Notes under the pieces: generated by a model
What the model was told of the DNA's origin: nothing
The model's input: only the letters and a program-made list of their open reading frames with translations
Database searches by the model: none
Position numbers and translations under genes: made by a program
Assembly (NCBI RefSeq): GCF_014207745.1
Contig: NZ_JACHJB010000002.1
Coordinates: 2,480,001-2,544,000, forward strand
DNA from: Nonomuraea muscovyensis
GTDB taxonomy: Bacteria; Actinomycetota; Actinomycetes; Streptosporangiales; Streptosporangiaceae
Direction of reading: 5' to 3'
DNA: 64,000 nt
Part shown: piece by piece, positions 2,344 through 11,293 of the stretch
Layout: every line of letters begins with the position of its first letter
How positions within the stretch are numbered: the stretch's first letter is position 1

Positions 2344-3771
2344 GTGCGCAGACGTCTGCTCGTGATCGTGATCGGCCTGGTCGCCGGGCTGGTGGCGGCG
2401 CTCGGGCTGCCACTGGCCGTGGCGGGCGCCGACCAGGCGTCGCAGGAGCTGTTCATCAGCCGGGCCGACGACACGGCGCGGTTCGCGGACGTGGCCGAGG
2501 CGGCGCTGTCCACCGGCCGGACCCGGCGCCTGACGGCCGACCTGCTGCGCTACGACGCGCTGTACGACACCCCGGTGATGGTGGTGAACTCCGACGGTCA
2601 GGTGGTGGCCTCCTCCCGCGAGGGGATGTCCCCGGAGCAGGACGAGGTGCGCCTCCCGCTGCTGCGGGGGCTCGCCGGGCGGCCGCCGCAGCGGCCGCAC
2701 GTGCTGTGGCCGTGGGACGACCGGCCGTATGTGGTGGTCGAGCCGGTGGTGCGCGACGGCCGGGTGCTCGGCGCGGCCGTGACGATCTCGCCGACGGACC
2801 GGGCGCGCGACGAGGTCGCCGGGAGGCTCGCCTACCTCGCCCTCGGCGGTGTGGTGGCGCTGCTCGTGGTGGCGCTGGCGGTGGCGGTTCCGGTGGTGCG
2901 GTGGGTGCTGCGCCCGGTGCACGAGCTGGACGAGGCCGCGCACGCCGTGGGGTCCGGCCGGCACACCGCCCACGTGTCCGACCGGACCGGGCCGCCCGAG
3001 CTGCGGCGGCTGGCCGCGAGCTTCAACGTGATGGCCGACGGCGTCGCCGCCGCCGTGCTCAAGCAGCAGGCGTTCGTCGCCCAGGCCTCGCACCAGCTCC
3101 GCAACCCGCTCACGGCGCTGCGGCTGCGCGTGGAGAACGCCGAGTCCACCATCTCCGACCCGCACGGGCGGGAGGAGCTGCGGCTCGCCCTGGAGGAGGC
3201 CGACCGGCTCGGCGAGAGCGTGGACGCGTTGCTGCAGCTCGCCCGGGCCGAGTCCACGCACGAGGAGCCCGGCCCGCTCGACGTGTCGGCCGCCGTGCAC
3301 CGGCGCGCGGTGGCGTGGCGGGCCGCCTACGACAGCTCGGCGACGCCGCTGGCGGTGGACGTGCCGGAGGGGCTGACCGTCACCGGTGTGCCCGACCTGC
3401 TCGACCACGCCCTGGACGCGCTGCTCGACAACGCGCTGAAGTTCGGGCAGGGCAGCCCGGTGGAGGTGACGGCCCGCCTTCGGGGCGAGGCGGTGGAGAT
3501 CCGGGTCCGGGACGGCGGGCCGGGGCTGCCCGCCGGCGAGCTGGCCCGCGCGGGCGACAGGTTCTGGCGCAGCCCGCGGCATCAGAACGTGCCCGGCACG
3601 GGCCTCGGCCTGGCGATCACCCGGACCCTGGCCGAGCGGAGCGGCGGGTCGATGACGCTGGCGACGGCCCGGCCCCACGGGCTGGAGGTGCTCCTCACGC
3701 TGCCCGTCAGCGGTGCGCCGAGCGGTACCAGCGCGCCGCGCCCTGGTGCAGCTCCAGCGGGAACGTCATGA
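2344..3771 (+). CDS. Sensor histidine kinase (TctE-like architecture)
   Basis: Membrane histidine kinase of 475 residues. In order: an N-terminal TM helix (about residues 5-28), an extracytoplasmic sensor of about 130 residues, a second TM helix (LAYLALGGVVALLVVALAVA), a HAMP linker, a HisKA domain with phospho-acceptor His250 in QASHQLRNPLTALRLR, and an ATPase domain with N box DALLDNALKFG and G boxes DGGPGLP and GTGLGLAI. GTG 2344 is chosen because GGGAGG sits 5 nt upstream; in-frame codons further upstream would overrun the divergent promoter region. Its 3' end overlaps the convergent TAXI gene by 65 bp. It is the likely partner of the response regulator at 4668-5324, in the style of TctD/TctE. 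Pairing is inferred from position. Confidence 0.92.
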   Translation: MRRRLLVIVIGLVAGLVAALGLPLAVAGADQASQELFISRADDTARFADVAEAALSTGRTRRLTADLLRYDALYDTPVMVVNSDGQVVASSREGMSPEQDEVRLPLLRGLAGRPPQRPHVLWPWDDRPYVVVEPVVRDGRVLGAAVTISPTDRARDEVAGRLAYLALGGVVALLVVALAVAVPVVRWVLRPVHELDEAAHAVGSGRHTAHVSDRTGPPELRRLAASFNVMADGVAAAVLKQQAFVAQASHQLRNPLTALRLRVENAESTISDPHGREELRLALEEADRLGESVDALLQLARAESTHEEPGPLDVSAAVHRRAVAWRAAYDSSATPLAVDVPEGLTVTGVPDLLDHALDALLDNALKFGQGSPVEVTARLRGEAVEIRVRDGGPGLPAGELARAGDRFWRSPRHQNVPGTGLGLAITRTLAERSGGSMTLATARPHGLEVLLTLPVSGAPSGTSAPRPGAAPAGTS

Positions 3772-4666
3772 TCGCCGAGCCGGGGTCGAGGCGGCGGGCC
3801 TCGGGATGGACCTCGGCGAGCCGGGGCTGGCCCTCGAAGAGCAGCCGGGTGAGCCAGTAGGCCGTGGCCGGCGGCAGGTCGCGCCGGGCGACGAGGTAGG
3901 TGGGCACGCTCACGGTCGTCACCGCGTTGGACAGCCCGTAGACGGAGGCGGGCACGGTGGTCCTGGTGTAGAGGTCGCCGTACTCGCGGACCAGCGGCTC
4001 GATCGTGGAGCCGAGGTCGATCAGCCGCATGTCCGTTCCGCGGCGCAGGTCGGTGATGGCGGCGCTGGGCAGCCCCCCGCTCCAGAAGAACGCGTCGATC
4101 TCCCGGGCCGCGAGCGCCCGGGCCGAGGCGACGACGTCGAGACGGCGCAGCTCGACGTCGTCGGTGAGCCCGGCGACGCGCAGGATGCGCTCGCCGGCGA
4201 CCGCCGTGCCCGACCCTTCGCCGCCGACCGAGACGCGCCGCCCCCTGAGGTCCTTGACCTTGCGGATGGGCCCGTCGTCGCGCACGACGAGCTGGACGTA
4301 GTTGTCGTACAGCCGGGCCAGGGCGACGACGGGGCGCGGCGTGCCGAACTCCTCCCGGCCGGCGAGGGCGTCGGCCGCCACGTCGGCGAGCGTGAACCCC
4401 GTCTCCGCGCGGCCGGACACGACCCTCTCGATGTTGTCCACGCTGCCGCCCGAGGGCAGGACCTCGGCGTCAGCGGGGAACCGCTCGCCGAGCACCCGGG
4501 CGTACGCCGAGCCGTACACCTCGTAGACGCCGCCCTCGGCGCCCGTGGCGATCCTGACGGGGCCCTCCGGGACGGCCGGCACGTCGGCGGCGGCGCACCC
4601 GCTCGCCGGCAGCACGGTCACGAGCACGGCCATGAGGAGGAGCCGGAGCGGCCGCAGTCGCGTCAT
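3707..4666 (-). CDS. TAXI-family solute-binding lipoprotein (orphan, with signalling genes)
   Basis: Extracytoplasmic binding protein of 319 residues of the TRAP-associated TAXI family. A lipobox ends PASGC at Cys24 after a hydrophobic signal, so it should be anchored to the outer face of the membrane. Family features include RIATGAEGGVYEVYG near the mature N-terminus, SGGSVDNIERVVSG, GFTLADVAADA and FFWSGGLPSAAI. It is a paralogue of the TAXI protein at 10319-11293. It starts 1 nt after the response-regulator stop codon, so it is the last gene of the kinase-regulator operon and has no permease beside it. That suggests a role as ligand sensor rather than transporter subunit, which is inference. 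Confidence 0.9.
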   Translation of the reverse strand: MTRLRPLRLLLMAVLVTVLPASGCAAADVPAVPEGPVRIATGAEGGVYEVYGSAYARVLGERFPADAEVLPSGGSVDNIERVVSGRAETGFTLADVAADALAGREEFGTPRPVVALARLYDNYVQLVVRDDGPIRKVKDLRGRRVSVGGEGSGTAVAGERILRVAGLTDDVELRRLDVVASARALAAREIDAFFWSGGLPSAAITDLRRGTDMRLIDLGSTIEPLVREYGDLYTRTTVPASVYGLSNAVTTVSVPTYLVARRDLPPATAYWLTRLLFEGQPRLAEVHPEARRLDPGSAIMTFPLELHQGAARWYRSAHR

Positions 4667-4667
4667 G

Positions 4668-5324
4668 TCAGGCGGCCGTGGCCAGCCGGTAGCCGACGCC
4701 GCGGACGGTCTCGATCACGACGGGCTCGCCGAGCTTGGCGCGCAGGGTCGCCATGTGCACGTCGAGGGTGCGGCCCGCGCCCGGCCAGGCCGTGCCCCAG
4801 ACCTCGATGAGCAGGCGTTCGCGTGGCACGACGACGCCCGGGTCGCGGGCCAGGCAGGCGAGCAGGTCGAACTCCTTGCGGGTCAGCACCACCGCCTCCT
4901 CCTTGCGGCTGACGGTGTGGGCGGCCAGGTCGACGCGCAGGTCGCCGATCTGCGCGGCGGGGCGCGGGGCGGGCCGCACCCGGCGCATCACGGCCTCCAT
5001 GCGGGCCACCAGCTCGGCCATCGAGAACGGCTTGACCAGGTAGTCGTCGGCTCCGGAGCGCAGCCCGGCGACGCGGTCGCGTTCCTCGCCCCGGGCGGTG
5101 ACGGCGATGATGGCGACCTCGGCGCCGTCGCGGCGCAGCCTCCTGCACAGGTCGAGCCCGTCGCCGTCGGGCAGGTTGAGGTCGAGCAGGATCATGTCGA
5201 CGGGGGGCGCGGCCAGCGCCTCGGCCGCGCCTGCGGCGCGGTGCACCTCGAACCCGTGGCGGCACAGCGCCGCGTCAAGGGCGGCGGCGACTCGGGAGTC
5301 GTCTTCCACGACAAGCACGCGCAT
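4668..5324 (-). CDS. OmpR/TctD-type response regulator
   Basis: Two-component response regulator of 218 residues. The receiver domain has acidic residues E7-D9 (VVEDD), phospho-acceptor Asp48 (ILLDLNLPDGDG), and the conserved lysine in YLVKPFS. The C-terminal winged helix ends with RTLDVHMATLRAKLGEP and TVRGVGYRLA, typical of OmpR-like DNA binding. ATG 5324 (MRVLVVEDD) is preferred over an in-frame upstream codon because the receiver domain begins immediately. The kinase stop codon lies 4 nt upstream and the TAXI gene 1 nt downstream, so the three genes are almost certainly one operon. Plausible target: the TRAP operon at 8292-11293. Confidence 0.93.
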   Translation of the reverse strand: MRVLVVEDDSRVAAALDAALCRHGFEVHRAAGAAEALAAPPVDMILLDLNLPDGDGLDLCRRLRRDGAEVAIIAVTARGEERDRVAGLRSGADDYLVKPFSMAELVARMEAVMRRVRPAPRPAAQIGDLRVDLAAHTVSRKEEAVVLTRKEFDLLACLARDPGVVVPRERLLIEVWGTAWPGAGRTLDVHMATLRAKLGEPVVIETVRGVGYRLATAA

Positions 5325-5328
5325 GATC

Positions 5329-8034
5329 TCACGCCTGGGTTCGGCTGCTGGGGCGCATCCCATCGTGCCATGGACCGCCGTCGCCGTCTTCGGTCCCGTA
5401 CCCGCCGATGTCCCGTACGGGTCCCCCGGGGTCCGTCGTGGGGCCGGTCGTGGGGCCGGTCGTGGGGCCGGTCGCGGGGCCGGTCGCGGGGTCCGTCGTG
5501 CCCAGGAGGTCGGCGACCTGGAGGCCGAGCCGGCCGGCCTCGTAGGCGACGTCCCCGTAGTCGGTGTCGCCGCGGGTCAGGACGCCCAGCAGGACGGGAC
5601 CGGCGGCGAAGGCCAGGAGGGCGCCCTCGTCCATGTCCACCGCGGTCTGGCGGACGTGACCGGTCGCCAGCGAGCGGGCGGTGCCGGCGCTCAGCCCGGC
5701 GATGCCCGCCACGGCCGCGGCCAGGTGGACGGAGCGCTCCCGGGACAGCGCGCCGGAGGAGGCGAGGGCGACCCCGTCGGCGGAGACGGCGACGGCGTGG
5801 GCCACGCCGGGCACCTGGTTGGTGAACCGGGTCAGCAGCCAGCCGAGCCGGTCGGCCAGCATCCCGGCCTCGTGGCCGCCGGCGGTCGCCGCCGAGCGCC
5901 CCCTGAGCACCCCCGCCACCTCGTGACCGCCGGGCGCCTCGGGTTCCGCCGGCATCGCGGCGGGAAGACCCCCGGGCGCCCCGGCCCCGAGGCTCCCGAA
6001 CGTCCCGGTCCCGTGGCCGCCGGGCGTCCCGACCGCGCCCGGGCCGCCCGCGGTCCCCGTCCCGGCCCGGCGGGACGTGGCCGCGAGGAGCGGGGGCGGG
6101 ATCAGGACGGTGGCGATGACGCCCCGGCCCCGGCTGGACAGCCGGACCGTGACCCCGTGACGGTCCGCCAGCCGGGCGACCACGAGCAGCCCCATGGTGC
6201 CGCCCAGCCCGGCCACCGGGGCGTCGGGCCGCGCGAGGCGGGTGTTGGCCTGGTCGAGCGCCACGGGGTCCATGCCGGTGCCCTGGTCCTGGATGGTCAC
6301 GGTGCACCCGTCACCGGAGGTGTAGGCGCGGACCACGACCGGGGTGTCGGGCGGCGAGTGGTGCGTGGCGTTCTCCAGCAGCTCGGCGATCAGGTGCACC
6401 AGGTCGCCGACGGCCTCCGCGGCGACCGGCGTCCCGGCCAGGGCGATGGGCTGGATCCGCCGGTACTCCTCGATCTCGGCCAGGGCGCCGCGGACGACGT
6501 CGTACAGCGGCACGGCCGACCCGAACCTGCGGACCGGCTCGCCGCCCGCCAGCACGAGCAGGCTCTCGTCGTTGCGGCGCATCCGCGCCGCCAGGTGGTC
6601 GAGCTGGTAGAGCCAGCCGAGCGTGTCGGGATCGGTCTCGCCGGCCTCCAGCCGGTCGATGAGGTCGAGCTGACGGGCGACCAGCGTCTGGCCGCGCCGG
6701 GCCATCGCCTCGAACACGGCCGCCGAGTCCCGGCGCAGCAGCGCCTGCCCGGTGGCCAGGTCGAGCGCGCGGGCGTGCACGACGGTCAGCGCGCTGCCCA
6801 CGTCGCCGATCTCGTCGGGGCCGTGCTGCTCGCCGAGGGCGTGCCGGGCGAGCTGGTCGGTACGGGCCGCGACGGGGTCGGGGGCGGCCCCGATGGCCTT
6901 GATGGCCTCGGGCAGCCGGACGTCGGCCAGGGCCAGCGCCGAGGCGCGCAGCCGCCTCAGCCGGCGGGCGAGATCCGCGGCGACCAGGGCCGTCACGCCG
7001 AGGGTGAGGGCGAGCGCGCCCGCCGTCAGCCCGATGGTGACCACGAGGCCGCGGCGGGCGTCGCCCAGCACCTCGGCGGCGGTCGCGTCGAGCCGTTCGG
7101 TGAGGTCGAGCTCGACGTCGTGCAACCGCTTGATCGTGTGCGAGGCGGCCACGTACCAGGCGTCGGCGTCGGCGATCAGCACCCGGCCGCTCGCGGGGTC
7201 CGTCCGGCCCGTCGCGGGGTCCTGCCCGCCCGTGGCGGCGCCGGTCCGGCCCAGGGTGCGCTCCATGGCGGCGCGGGTGGCGCGGGTGGCCTCGACGTCG
7301 GGCCCGGCGAACCGGGAGGCGAGCCGGCCGCGCGCCCAGGGGTCGGCCGCGGCCTCGAACCCCCGCAGGTGCGCCGCCTCGGTCGCCGCCAGCCGTACCA
7401 GCTCGCGGGCCTCGGCCGGCCGGAGCCGCCCACGCGTGAGCGCGCCGCGCAGCAGCTCGCGCTGCTCGGCGAGCGCGTGCTTGGCTCCGGCCAGCTCCGC
7501 GACGGCGTGGGCCTGGTTGGCCAGCCGCTGGTCGTCGATCTGGCGGGGCAGCGCGGTGGCGACGGTGAGCAGGGCGGTCACCGCGGCGCCGTAGCGGTCC
7601 TCGCCCGCGGCGTCCTGCGCGGCGCCGTCGCGGGTTTTGGCGAGCGCCTGCTCGGCGCCGCGCAGGGCGGCGGCGAGGCCGGGCGCGGCCTCCTGGGCGG
7701 TGCGGCCGGCCTCGGTGAAGGCCCGCCGCGCGGCGTCGGTGCGCTGCCGGGCGGCCGTCACCAGCACCCGGCCGCTGGTGCCACCGCGCGCCGTCAGCGC
7801 CTGCGCCTCCGCCTTCTCCCGTTCGAGCTGGTGCACCAGGCCGGAGGTGGCGGTGGACAGGGAGGCCAGGTCGCGGGTGCGCTGGCCGCCGTCGGCCACC
7901 CCCATGACGGTGCCGGCCTGCGTCACGGCGAAGGCGAGCAGCCCCAGGACGGGCAGCGCGACGAGGAGTCCGAGCCGCGCTCGTACCGTCCACCACCTCC
8001 AGGGACGCGGGGAGATCGGGACTTTGAGCGCCAT
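5329..8034 (-). CDS. NIT-domain histidine kinase fused to a roadblock/LC7 domain (CvnA-CvnB fusion)
   Basis: Protein of 901 residues. An N-terminal TM helix (LGLLVALPVLGLLAFAV) is followed by a nitrate/nitrite-sensing-like helical region to about residue 325, a second TM helix (about 331-352), a dimerisation region containing LDHLAARMRRNDESLLVLAG, and an ATPase domain (ELLENATHHS near 550, GGTMGLLVVARLADR near 611). A Gly/Pro linker leads to a roadblock/LC7-like domain (about 715-840) and a Pro/Thr/Gly tail. In actinobacterial conservons CvnA (kinase) and CvnB (roadblock) are separate genes followed by CvnC and CvnD. Here A and B are fused and no C or D follows. Instead an ordinary response regulator starts 4 nt after the stop. 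Confidence 0.9.
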   Translation of the reverse strand: MALKVPISPRPWRWWTVRARLGLLVALPVLGLLAFAVTQAGTVMGVADGGQRTRDLASLSTATSGLVHQLEREKAEAQALTARGGTSGRVLVTAARQRTDAARRAFTEAGRTAQEAAPGLAAALRGAEQALAKTRDGAAQDAAGEDRYGAAVTALLTVATALPRQIDDQRLANQAHAVAELAGAKHALAEQRELLRGALTRGRLRPAEARELVRLAATEAAHLRGFEAAADPWARGRLASRFAGPDVEATRATRAAMERTLGRTGAATGGQDPATGRTDPASGRVLIADADAWYVAASHTIKRLHDVELDLTERLDATAAEVLGDARRGLVVTIGLTAGALALTLGVTALVAADLARRLRRLRASALALADVRLPEAIKAIGAAPDPVAARTDQLARHALGEQHGPDEIGDVGSALTVVHARALDLATGQALLRRDSAAVFEAMARRGQTLVARQLDLIDRLEAGETDPDTLGWLYQLDHLAARMRRNDESLLVLAGGEPVRRFGSAVPLYDVVRGALAEIEEYRRIQPIALAGTPVAAEAVGDLVHLIAELLENATHHSPPDTPVVVRAYTSGDGCTVTIQDQGTGMDPVALDQANTRLARPDAPVAGLGGTMGLLVVARLADRHGVTVRLSSRGRGVIATVLIPPPLLAATSRRAGTGTAGGPGAVGTPGGHGTGTFGSLGAGAPGGLPAAMPAEPEAPGGHEVAGVLRGRSAATAGGHEAGMLADRLGWLLTRFTNQVPGVAHAVAVSADGVALASSGALSRERSVHLAAAVAGIAGLSAGTARSLATGHVRQTAVDMDEGALLAFAAGPVLLGVLTRGDTDYGDVAYEAGRLGLQVADLLGTTDPATGPATGPTTGPTTGPTTDPGGPVRDIGGYGTEDGDGGPWHDGMRPSSRTQA
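5434..5493. repeat. 12-bp in-frame tandem repeat in kinase C-terminal tail
   Basis: Five consecutive copies of a 12-mer close to GGTCGTGGGGCC (units start at 5434, 5446, 5458, 5470, 5482). The repeat is in frame in the kinase-roadblock gene and encodes repeated Gly-Pro-(Ala/Thr)-Thr in the disordered C-terminal tail. Because the period is a multiple of three, copy-number changes would only lengthen or shorten the tail. Confidence 0.85.
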
Positions 8035-8291
8035 GCTGACGTACCTCGGTTCGGGGAGTGCAGCGCCGCCCGGACCGCGTGCGCGGACGAGTGGCTTGCG
8101 CGCACCTTAGTGGCATGGGTCACATCACGAACATGGACGGACATCAGGATTTGATCTGCCCTTAACACAACCGCGCGGCTTTCCTAAGAGTTCATCAAAT
8201 AGAGGCGTCCGGACCTTCATGGGTGGGCCAGGTCACATCTACGTTTCACGCAACCGGCGGCCGGTGTGCCGCGGACGTGAGGAGGTTAGAG
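8035..8291. promoter_or_regulatory. Divergent control region between kinase operon and TRAP operon
   Basis: This 257-bp region separates the two divergent operons and must hold both promoters. A 9-bp direct repeat GGTCACATC occurs at 8118-8126 and 8231-8239, a candidate for regulator half-sites. The centre (about 8145-8205) is much more AT-rich than its surroundings. A clear GGAGG ribosome-binding site (8281-8285) precedes the GTG start at 8292. I could not assign -35/-10 boxes with confidence. Confidence 0.45.
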
Positions 8292-10319
8292 GTGACATCC
8301 GCCGACCAGGGCGCCGCCCCGGCACGCAGTGCCGAAGAGCTCATCGCCGAGTACGACGCCGAGCGGCCGGCGCGGCACCTGACGGGCCGGCTGGCGATCG
8401 TCGTCGGGGCGATCGCGCTCGGCGTCTCGCTCTACGCGCTCTACGTGGTGTTCAACCCGATGTCCGTGCTGCCGTACCGGATGAGCTTCCTGGCGGCGGT
8501 GCTGCCCCTGACGTTCCTGGCCTACCGGCCGGGCCTGCCTCGGTGGCTCACCCGCCGGCGGGCCGAGGCGGCGGCAGCGCAGCCGGACGGGGCGCCTCCC
8601 GTCACCAGGCGCGACGTGCCCGGTGTCTCCGACTGGGTGCTGGCGGCGCTGTCCCTCGCGGTGTGCGCGTACCCGCTGTTCGGGTTCGACGACTTCATCC
8701 GGCGCACCTTCGAGCCCTCGACGCTGGACCTCGTCATGGGGGCCGGCTGTCTGCTGCTGGTGCTGGAGGCCACGCGCCGCACCGTGGGGCCGATCCTGCC
8801 GGGGATCTGCGTGGCGTTCCTGGCCTACGCCTACTACGGCGGCTACCTGCCGGTGGACTCCGTCCTCGGGCACCGCGGCTACGGCATCGAGCGGATCGTG
8901 GTGCAGCTCTACATGGGCACCGAGGGCCTGTTCGGGGTGCCCCTGGACGTGGCGGCGACGTACATCGTGCTGTTCACGATCTACGGGGCGGTGCTGGAGT
9001 ACTCGGGGGCGGGCGCGTTCTTCGTCAACATCTCGTTCGCGGCGTTCCGCCGCTCGGCCGCCGCGCCGGGCCGTACGGTGACGCTGGCGGGGTTCCTGCT
9101 CGGCACGGTGTCGGGGTCGGGCACGGCCACGGCGGTGTCGCTGGGCAGCGTGGCCTGGCCGATCCTGCGGCGGGCCGGCTATCCGCGCGAGCACGGCGGC
9201 GGCATCCTCGCCGCGGCGGGGATCGGCGCGATCCTGTCGCCGCCGACGCTGGGGGCGGCGGCGTTCATCATCGCCGAGTACCTCAAGGTGTCCTACCTGA
9301 CGGTGCTGCTGTACGCGACCGTGCCGACGGTCCTGTACTACCTCGGGATCATCCTGGCGGTCGAGATCGACGCCCGCCGGTTCGGCACCCACGGCGTCGA
9401 GATGGAGACCGGCTCGGCCTGGCGGCTGCTCGGCCGGTTCGGCTACCACTTCTCCTCGCTGGTCGCGATCGTGGTGCTGATGGCCTTCGGGGTGTCGCCG
9501 TTCCGCGCGGTCGTCTACGCCACCGTGCTGGCCTTCCTGCTGTCGTTCCTCGACCGCGAGCACCGTCTCGGGCCGCGGCGGGCGGCGCAGGCGCTGTCGG
9601 CCGGGACGCTCGGCGTGCTGCCCGTGGCGGCCACCACCGCGGCGGCCGGGGTGATCGTGGCGATGGTGACGCTCACCGGGCTCGGACTGAAGGCGTCGCG
9701 GATCATCGTGGACCTGGCCGGCGGCCACCTCGCGCTGACCGCCCTGGTGGCGGCGCTGGCGGTGCTGCTGCTGGGTCTGGCCGTGCCGGTGACCGCGTCG
9801 TTCATCATCGCGGCCGTCATCATCGGCCCGGCCCTGCAGACGCTGGGGGTGCCGCCGGACGCGGCGTACATGTTCATCTTCTACTACGCGGTCCTGTCGG
9901 AGGTGACGCCGCCGACCGCGCTCGCGGCGGTCGCCGCGGCGGCCATCACGGGCGGCAACGCCTTCCGGACCATGATGATGACCTGGAAGTACACCCTGCC
10001 GGCGTTCCTGGTGCCGTTCGCCTTCGTGCTGGCGCCGGCCGGGCGGGCCCTGCTGCTGCAGGCCCCGCTGCCGGAGGTGCTCCTGGCTCTCGCGGTCTCG
10101 GCGGTCGCCGTGGCCGCGCTGGCCGCCGCCACCGGCGGCTGGATGGTACGGCGGGCCGGCTGGCCCGAGCGTGTCCTGGCGGCGGGCGCGGCCGTCGCCC
10201 TGCTCTTCCTCGAACCGGTGAGCGTCGTGGCCGGACTGGCCCTGCTCGCCGTGGCGCTGCTCGTCCACCTGGCGCTGCGCCGCCCCGTTCCCGTACAAGG
10301 TACGCAGAAAGGAACCTGA
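8292..10319 (+). CDS. TRAP transporter permease, fused 4TM/12TM subunit (TAXI type)
   Basis: Large polytopic membrane protein of 675 residues that fuses the small and large TRAP membrane subunits, as is standard for TAXI-type systems. TRAP systems take up organic acids using ion gradients and a binding protein. The N-terminal helices (LAIVVGAIALGVSLYALYVV and following) correspond to the small subunit. The remainder carries the DctM-like core, including GTVSGSGTATAVSLGSVAWP and GIGAILSPPTLGAAAFIIAE. GTG 8292 is chosen for its GGAGG 6 nt upstream. The stop overlaps the ATG of the TAXI gene by 1 nt (TGATG), so the two are translationally coupled. The substrate cannot be read from sequence. Confidence 0.94.
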   Translation: MTSADQGAAPARSAEELIAEYDAERPARHLTGRLAIVVGAIALGVSLYALYVVFNPMSVLPYRMSFLAAVLPLTFLAYRPGLPRWLTRRRAEAAAAQPDGAPPVTRRDVPGVSDWVLAALSLAVCAYPLFGFDDFIRRTFEPSTLDLVMGAGCLLLVLEATRRTVGPILPGICVAFLAYAYYGGYLPVDSVLGHRGYGIERIVVQLYMGTEGLFGVPLDVAATYIVLFTIYGAVLEYSGAGAFFVNISFAAFRRSAAAPGRTVTLAGFLLGTVSGSGTATAVSLGSVAWPILRRAGYPREHGGGILAAAGIGAILSPPTLGAAAFIIAEYLKVSYLTVLLYATVPTVLYYLGIILAVEIDARRFGTHGVEMETGSAWRLLGRFGYHFSSLVAIVVLMAFGVSPFRAVVYATVLAFLLSFLDREHRLGPRRAAQALSAGTLGVLPVAATTAAAGVIVAMVTLTGLGLKASRIIVDLAGGHLALTALVAALAVLLLGLAVPVTASFIIAAVIIGPALQTLGVPPDAAYMFIFYYAVLSEVTPPTALAAVAAAAITGGNAFRTMMMTWKYTLPAFLVPFAFVLAPAGRALLLQAPLPEVLLALAVSAVAVAALAAATGGWMVRRAGWPERVLAAGAAVALLFLEPVSVVAGLALLAVALLVHLALRRPVPVQGTQKGT

Positions 10320-11293
10320 TGCGATCCGTCATCCGTCTCGGCGCCGCCGCGCTGGCCCTCGTGGCCGGCCTCACGGCGTGCGGCGGCGAGCGCCAGACCG
10401 CCGCGGGCGATGGCGCCCTCTACAACAGCGGGCGGCTGTCCATCGCCACCGGCAACACCACCGGCGTCTACTACCAGCTCGGCGGCGGCTACGCCGACCT
10501 GGTCACCAAGAACCTGCAGGGTTACCAGGTCACGGCGGAGGCCACCGGCGCCTCGGTGGAGAACATCCAGCGGGTGGTCCGCGGCGACTCCGACATCGCC
10601 TTCACCCTGGCCGACGCGGCGAGCGACGCCGCGACCGGCAAGGGCGCCTTCGACAGCCCGCAGCCGATCAGGGCGCTGGCGAGGATCTACACGAACTACA
10701 CCCATGTGATCGCGCGCGCCGACGCCGGCATCCGCACCGTCGCCGACATGAAGGGCAAGCGCGTCTCCACCGGCTCCCCGAACTCGGGCACCGAGAACAT
10801 CGCCCTGCGCCTGCTCAAGGCCGCCGGGCTCAACCCCGATTCCGACATCAAGAAGCAGGCGCTGTCGCTGCCCGAGACGGTGCAGGGCGTCAAGGACGGC
10901 ACCCTGGACGCGCTGTTCTGGTCGGGCGGCCTGCCGACGGGCGGCGTCACGGACCTGACGACGAGCCTGAAGGACGACGTCGTGTTCGTGCCGATCGACG
11001 ACCTGCTGCCCAAGCTCGTCGCCGAGTACGGGCCGGTCTACCAGGCCAGCACGCTGAAGAAGGACGTGTACGCCACGGCGGCCGACGTGCCGACCATCGC
11101 CGTGCCCAACCTGCTGATCGTGTCGGACAAGATGCCGGCCGACCTCGCCGGGAACCTCACCAAGATCCTCTTCGACAAGCAGGCGGAGCTGGCGAAGGTC
11201 CACCCGGAGGCGAAGAACATCAGCCGCGAGGAGGCGCCGAAGACCGACCCGGTCCCCCTGCACGACGGTTCCAAGAAGTACTTCCAGCCCTGA
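10319..11293 (+). CDS. TAXI-family solute-binding lipoprotein of the TRAP transporter
   Basis: Binding protein of 324 residues, co-encoded with the TRAP permease. The signal peptide ends in a lipobox (LTACGG; Cys21), so it is a lipoprotein. Family motifs include LSIATGNTTGVYYQLGGGYA, ATGASVENIQRVVRGD, IAFTLADAASDAATG and ALFWSGGLPTGGV. ATG 10319 overlaps the permease stop and has GAAAGGA 6-10 nt upstream. It is clearly a paralogue of the TAXI protein at 3707-4666. Its position next to the permease makes it the transport-competent copy. A strong hairpin terminator follows. The ligand is unknown; TAXI proteins are linked to glutamate and dicarboxylate-type substrates. Confidence 0.94.
   Translation: MRSVIRLGAAALALVAGLTACGGERQTAAGDGALYNSGRLSIATGNTTGVYYQLGGGYADLVTKNLQGYQVTAEATGASVENIQRVVRGDSDIAFTLADAASDAATGKGAFDSPQPIRALARIYTNYTHVIARADAGIRTVADMKGKRVSTGSPNSGTENIALRLLKAAGLNPDSDIKKQALSLPETVQGVKDGTLDALFWSGGLPTGGVTDLTTSLKDDVVFVPIDDLLPKLVAEYGPVYQASTLKKDVYATAADVPTIAVPNLLIVSDKMPADLAGNLTKILFDKQAELAKVHPEAKNISREEAPKTDPVPLHDGSKKYFQP

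Follow-up and report, generated by a model that had tools for sequence, protein, structure and literature searches.

A CvnA-type sensor kinase and a CvnB-type roadblock, normally two separate proteins, are joined into one 901-residue protein in the 64-kb stretch of Nonomuraea muscovyensis DNA analysed here (the window), and its gene opens a tight operon with an OmpR-type response regulator (RR) and a TAXI-family solute-binding protein, TAXI1 (Table 1). In the most economical reading, which we hold tentatively and at a little under an even chance, a conservon front end has joined a pre-existing RR/HisKA-kinase/TAXI system by a TAXI-TRAP transporter as a second, accessory input.

Table 1. Features of the fusion locus in window coordinates; residue numbers refer to the fusion protein and dN/dS to the comparison with N. 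indica
Feature	Position	Strand	Details
Fusion gene	5329..8034	(-)	901 aa; same fusion in N. indica
NIT sensor domain of fusion	7090..7839	(-)	aa 66-315; Pfam NIT 8.6e-27; dN/dS 0.36
CvnA-type DHp helices of fusion	6541..6723	(-)	about aa 438-498; dN/dS 0.058 over aa 431-500
HATPase catalytic (CA) domain of fusion	6094..6405	(-)	aa 544-647; Pfam HATPase_c 1.3e-14; dN/dS 0.135 over aa 501-650
Disordered linker of fusion	5854..6084	(-)	aa 651-727; pLDDT about 30; dN/dS 0.93
Roadblock/LC7 domain of fusion	5575..5844	(-)	aa 731-820; Pfam Robl_LC7 3.7e-16; dN/dS 0.060 over aa 728-846
OmpR-type response regulator (RR)	4668..5324	(-)	Pfam Response_reg 1e-25, Trans_reg_C 2e-24
TAXI1, TAXI-family solute-binding protein	3707..4666	(-)	TIGR02122 8e-74
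HK2, canonical HisKA/HAMP histidine kinase	2344..3771	(+)	Pfam HisKA 1.6e-12; GTG start
Divergent promoter region	8035..8222	(.)	188 bp, between fusion and TRAP permease
Inverted pair of ATTTGATNNNCNCTTA	8149-8164 and 8185-8200	(+) and (-)	in divergent promoter region; candidate operator
TRAP transporter fused permease (DctQM)	8223..10319	(+)	TIGR02123 1e-134; start codon uncertain
TAXI2, second TAXI solute-binding protein	10319..11293	(+)	TAXI1 search E 6e-59; mapped in relatives

The protein consists, in order, of a transmembrane segment (TM), a NIT domain, a TM/HAMP-like segment, CvnA-type DHp helices, a HATPase domain, a disordered linker, a CvnB-type roadblock and a disordered tail, and its three Pfam matches (NIT, HATPase_c and Robl_LC7) all exceed the curated cut-offs. 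The first-pass annotation had proposed CvnA- and CvnB-like parts in one chain, with a roadblock in residues 700-845 and a NIT domain at the N-terminus; Pfam and the AlphaFold2 folds bear this out, as do PDB matches for the roadblock. In the AlphaFold2 model, which was built from 16 sequences, the NIT, DHp-CA and roadblock folds are present with most of each domain modelled confidently, the linker (654-720) and the tail (847-901) are disordered, and a mean pLDDT of 73.6 with a pTM of 0.42 makes the relative placement of the domains unreliable. A Foldseek search with this model retrieved NasR, HK853-type kinases and a roadblock (target TM 0.88). The fusion as a nitrate sensor was considered and is not supported: the position of the NasR 'ERG' arginine is occupied by Lys74, and by Gln in N. 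indica, in a weak alignment to NasR (E 0.47), and nitrate sensing by the NIT domain thus appears doubtful.

An origin of the fusion from a sequencing artefact or frameshift, the caveat attached to it initially, is ruled out, as the sister species N. indica carries it at the same place and in the same gene order, in one identical frame and with 87.5% identity. Strong purifying selection acts on the kinase and roadblock parts, with neutral drift in the linker and a dN/dS of 1.14 in the tail (own Nei-Gojobori script, two sequences only; Table 1); constrained kinase and roadblock parts with a drifting joint are the pattern expected of a working two-part protein. That the fusion is a decaying conservon leftover without current function would agree with the loss of CvnC, CvnD and the LPxR motif and with the presence of other incomplete conservons in the same genome, but an open frame in two species and a dN/dS of about 0.06 in both DHp and roadblock make this highly improbable.

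A survey of such fusions and their neighbours recovered the fusion in 2 of 54 Nonomuraea genomes, with the same gene order. It was found neither in 59 further genera within the family (E 1e-60), where the matches were ordinary CvnAs ending before the roadblock, nor in 131 genomes of the order outside the two known carriers, nor in 98 genomes of the class, the window's own genome aside; the family, order and class surveys are samples in which only the top candidates were scored. Since the same two genomes only were found, the fusion has probably arisen recently, in a single branch of the genus. Another apparent fusion of the own genome, at C1:2523766, was ruled out, its roadblock being a separate small gene; this gene (L009:1420-1850, G000 C1:2523766) lies behind a 300-aa frame of another family and outside any conservon. 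Possible fusions in the Streptosporangiaceae genome G002 and in N. gerenzanensis were likewise ruled out, A and B being encoded by two genes there. In the open-access literature searched, no account of a fusion of this kind was found, an absence which is not proof.

Aligned with 46 other CvnA-type rows, of which two are the same fusion, the protein shows the CvnA-type core (RR-x-x-QxLV-x-RQ ... LDHLATRMRRN ... HATPase). His480 (in LDHLA of DHp helix 2) is invariant across all aligned CvnAs and the HATPase domain keeps the conserved N555 and D583-x-G-x-G, while neither a HisKA domain nor a HisKA-type H-box was matched in the fusion by Pfam. Position 453 in helix 1 is Ala in the fusion and Glu (32), His (6), Gln (2) or Gly (1) in other CvnAs, the NIT-type CvnAs being mostly without His there (Glu in 32 of 41). 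In CvnA8, with a DHp spanning V168-L228, H183 is required for autophosphorylation (mBio 2026, PMC13343842). Because of these DHp boundaries, H183 would match position 453 and not 480, a correspondence to Ala453 that we infer from the boundaries. NIT-less CvnAs of other actinomycete genomes (probably Streptomyces) carry VFVNLARRLQSLVHRE at the equivalent of 453, and one of them, L121, has Val 15 residues ahead of the His in the VFVNLARRLQSLVHRE region. If the mapping is right, the fusion is without that histidine, as are most NIT-type CvnAs.

The roadblock part matches MfpD/Rv3364c (PDB 9hef, 6e-19) and CvnB5 (3leq, 2e-15) and keeps the D753-G754 motif, which is present in 100% of CvnBs and, in MfpD, is the suggested site of contact with the GTPase (PMC13015309). 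It retains 36 of 58 conserved columns (62%), close to the lowest value among true CvnBs (60%), and deviates from the CvnB consensus by L755V, S780G, M833A and G841A. The LPxR motif, a C-terminal feature of CvnA (PMC4316618), is absent from the fusion, in which the disordered linker replaces the LPxR-bearing C-terminal extension. Of 61 informative non-fusion CvnAs, 59 have LPxR; two further rows without it run off their loci and stand outside the 61. The two informative exceptions, L111 and L113, are both in loci with no CvnD found. As a strict marker of an absent CvnD, loss of LPxR was rejected, as the A-C pairs L036 and L112 are not among the CvnAs without LPxR.

Several incomplete or extended conservon loci were observed alongside. 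CvnA-CvnC pairs in the own genome are L036:3022-6018 (G000 C4), L111:4835-5930 (G000 C2) and L112:6345-7819 (G000 C1), for which CvnB or CvnD was not found directly with them. L113:6313-6987 (G000 C1:3159001-3171000) is a lone CvnA-type core with no B, C or D nearby and one in-frame TGA per the genome search. At L118:2576-4546 a CvnA is apparently split, its NIT and kinase parts lying in different frames; a CvnB gene follows it, and the stretch contains neither C nor D. A second roadblock gene lies past the CvnD of complete conservons at L125:1504-1920 and L126:7359-7712.

The absence of C and D genes at the fusion locus, as first annotated, is confirmed: no DUF742 match was obtained anywhere in the window, and tblastn of the full 64 kb with CvnC and CvnD as queries gave no significant match. 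Seven complete ABCD conservons elsewhere in the own genome are a possible source of CvnD in trans. A G-protein output of this kind, with the roadblock binding a CvnD from one of the seven and RR as a mere co-transcribed neighbour, would account for the retained D753-G754, the dN/dS of 0.06 on the roadblock and the conserved columns; on the other hand, the CvnA LPxR is lost, neither C nor D is linked and conserved roadblock positions have changed, so that we regard it as unlikely, yet a serious contender.

The surroundings of the fusion gene contain more than the adjoining regulator; TAXI1, HK2 and the divergent TRAP and TAXI2 genes were absent from the first-pass annotation. RR starts 4 nt past the fusion stop codon and is separated from TAXI1 by 1 nt, and this tight operon structure is the same in N. 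indica. HK2, convergent with TAXI1 and 0.9 kb beyond RR, is intact, with the H-box ASHQLRNPL and a dN/dS of 0.28; the corresponding value for RR (window against N. indica) is 0.25. The TRAP permease gene is divergent from the fusion, with TAXI2 downstream of it. The divergent promoter region contains an inverted pair of ATTTGATNNNCNCTTA, which is conserved in N. indica and comprises the only ATTTGAT sites in the 64 kb; the two sites themselves served to define the motif, after they had been seen, and it was not found at other RR-HK-TAXI cassettes. The pair is a candidate operator of RR.

Fetching of the best TAXI relatives and subsequent gene mapping gave 15 loci (L093-L103, L106-L109) with an RR directly ahead of an HK2-type kinase, the TAXI gene converging on the kinase gene in most of them and pointing the same way in two. 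This cassette of OmpR-type RR, HisKA kinase and TAXI, in which TAXI may be the sensor partner of the kinase, is widespread in actinomycetes, mostly with no TRAP permease genes alongside. In L102, RR, HK, TAXI, TAXI and TRAP follow in a single run, linking the cassette to transport; the TRAP/TAXI2 relatives L104, L105 and L110 have no such two-component genes within the stretches fetched. Placed in a tree together with 27 further RRs from the own genome and the 15 cassette RRs, the RR of the window falls among the latter, beside that of L099; furthermore, HK2 resembles the L099 kinase around the H-box and RR keeps the cassette-type helix 1. The window thus holds a rearranged cassette, which retains the cassette-clade RR and the HisKA kinase convergent with TAXI, and in which RR is not directly ahead of the HisKA kinase and has been relocated behind the fusion. 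As HK2 and TAXI1 keep their junction while RR has moved, the linkage of RR with the fusion is the derived state, and HK2 is the probable ancestral partner of RR. Since RR precedes its HisKA kinase in the relatives, its relocation into the operon of the fusion points to some functional connection between fusion and RR.

The regulator had rightly been taken for a normal RR adjoining the fusion, and it had been proposed to replace CvnC and CvnD as output and so to re-route a G-protein-type module into a two-component system. The replacement is not supported, as RR belongs to the cassette clade and its partner HK2 is intact nearby. Of the re-routing, the fused A and B parts, the missing C and D and the tight linkage of RR in both species stand; however, RR is not new, HK2 survives, and the fusion has no HisKA and carries Ala453 at the inferred phospho-histidine position. 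A present role of the fusion as a kinase dedicated to RR would be consistent with an adjacency derived relative to the cassettes, with intact HATPase motifs and with the invariant His480; an intact and constrained kinase of the ancestral partner type next door, the cassette-type helix 1 of RR and a core without HisKA, with Ala453 where H183 of CvnA8 would map, render this quite unlikely. Equally doubtful is a two-component capture, in which the CvnA-type core would phosphorylate or dephosphorylate RR under the in-cis roadblock and the former G-protein module would directly drive transcription of a nutrient transporter.

An accessory input is favoured because RR and HK2 are both cassette-type and constrained, because the operon gaps are tight and the RR-fusion linkage is derived, because strong constraint acts on DHp, CA and roadblock but not on the linker, and because L102 ties the cassette to transport. 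Going beyond what is read directly from the sequence, the NIT domain would sense an extracytoplasmic cue, the CvnA-type core would use ATP, and the core would pass on its state in cis to the roadblocks, which would form a dimer tethered through the flexible linker. The fusion might then act as an accessory input on an RR still phosphorylated by HK2, and transporter expression would answer two signals, one through TAXI1 and HK2 and one through NIT and the fusion. Phosphotransfer from His480, phosphatase action or a protein contact of the roadblock are conceivable routes for the second input to RR. On the other hand, the operon could merely co-express unrelated proteins, the GTPase-contact motif in the roadblock would equally suit a G-protein partner acting in trans, and the kinase core, whose action on RR is putative, is of a type not known to phosphorylate any RR.

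CvnA8 autophosphorylates, and its target is an open question (PMC13343842). A natural CvnA-CvnB fusion under strong selection hints, in the manner of a Rosetta stone, at direct signalling from the kinase to the roadblock protein. With C and D absent and RR present at the locus, the fusion uncouples the step between A and B from the one that involves the GTPase. As a rare variant purifiable as a single chain, it might aid in probing what CvnA kinases act on.

With C, D and LPxR absent, the locus falls outside the usual definition of a conservon, and the fusion does not qualify as a classical HisKA kinase either. The conservons CvnA-CvnB-CvnC-CvnD, such as Cvn8 and Cvn9 of Streptomyces coelicolor, have like the fusion a NIT-TM-DHp-HATPase kinase (32-35% identity over the A part) and an MglB-type roadblock (35-47%); unlike in these, A and B are one protein here, C, D and LPxR are missing, an RR is in the operon and the presumed phospho-histidine position has Ala. 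The mfp conservon of Mycobacterium (MfpE kinase, MfpD roadblock, MfpB GTPase) provides with MfpD the closest PDB match and shares the DG motif, whereas the fusion joins kinase and roadblock and has no linked GTPase or MfpA-like effector. Response_reg-Robl_LC7 fusion proteins (PMC4316618) likewise combine a two-component domain with a roadblock, the partner there being a receiver domain and here a membrane sensor kinase. In BctDE-BctC of Bordetella, two-component genes lie beside a transporter and the binding protein is the sensor partner (PMC5812351); the same logic is likely for HK2 and TAXI1, with the difference that the Bordetella system involves the TctC family instead of TAXI and has no conservon part. 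The RR-HisKA kinase-TAXI cassettes have the RR clade, the HK2 type and the convergent TAXI in common with the window, in which RR is parted from HK2, stands behind the fusion and is accompanied by adjacent TRAP genes.
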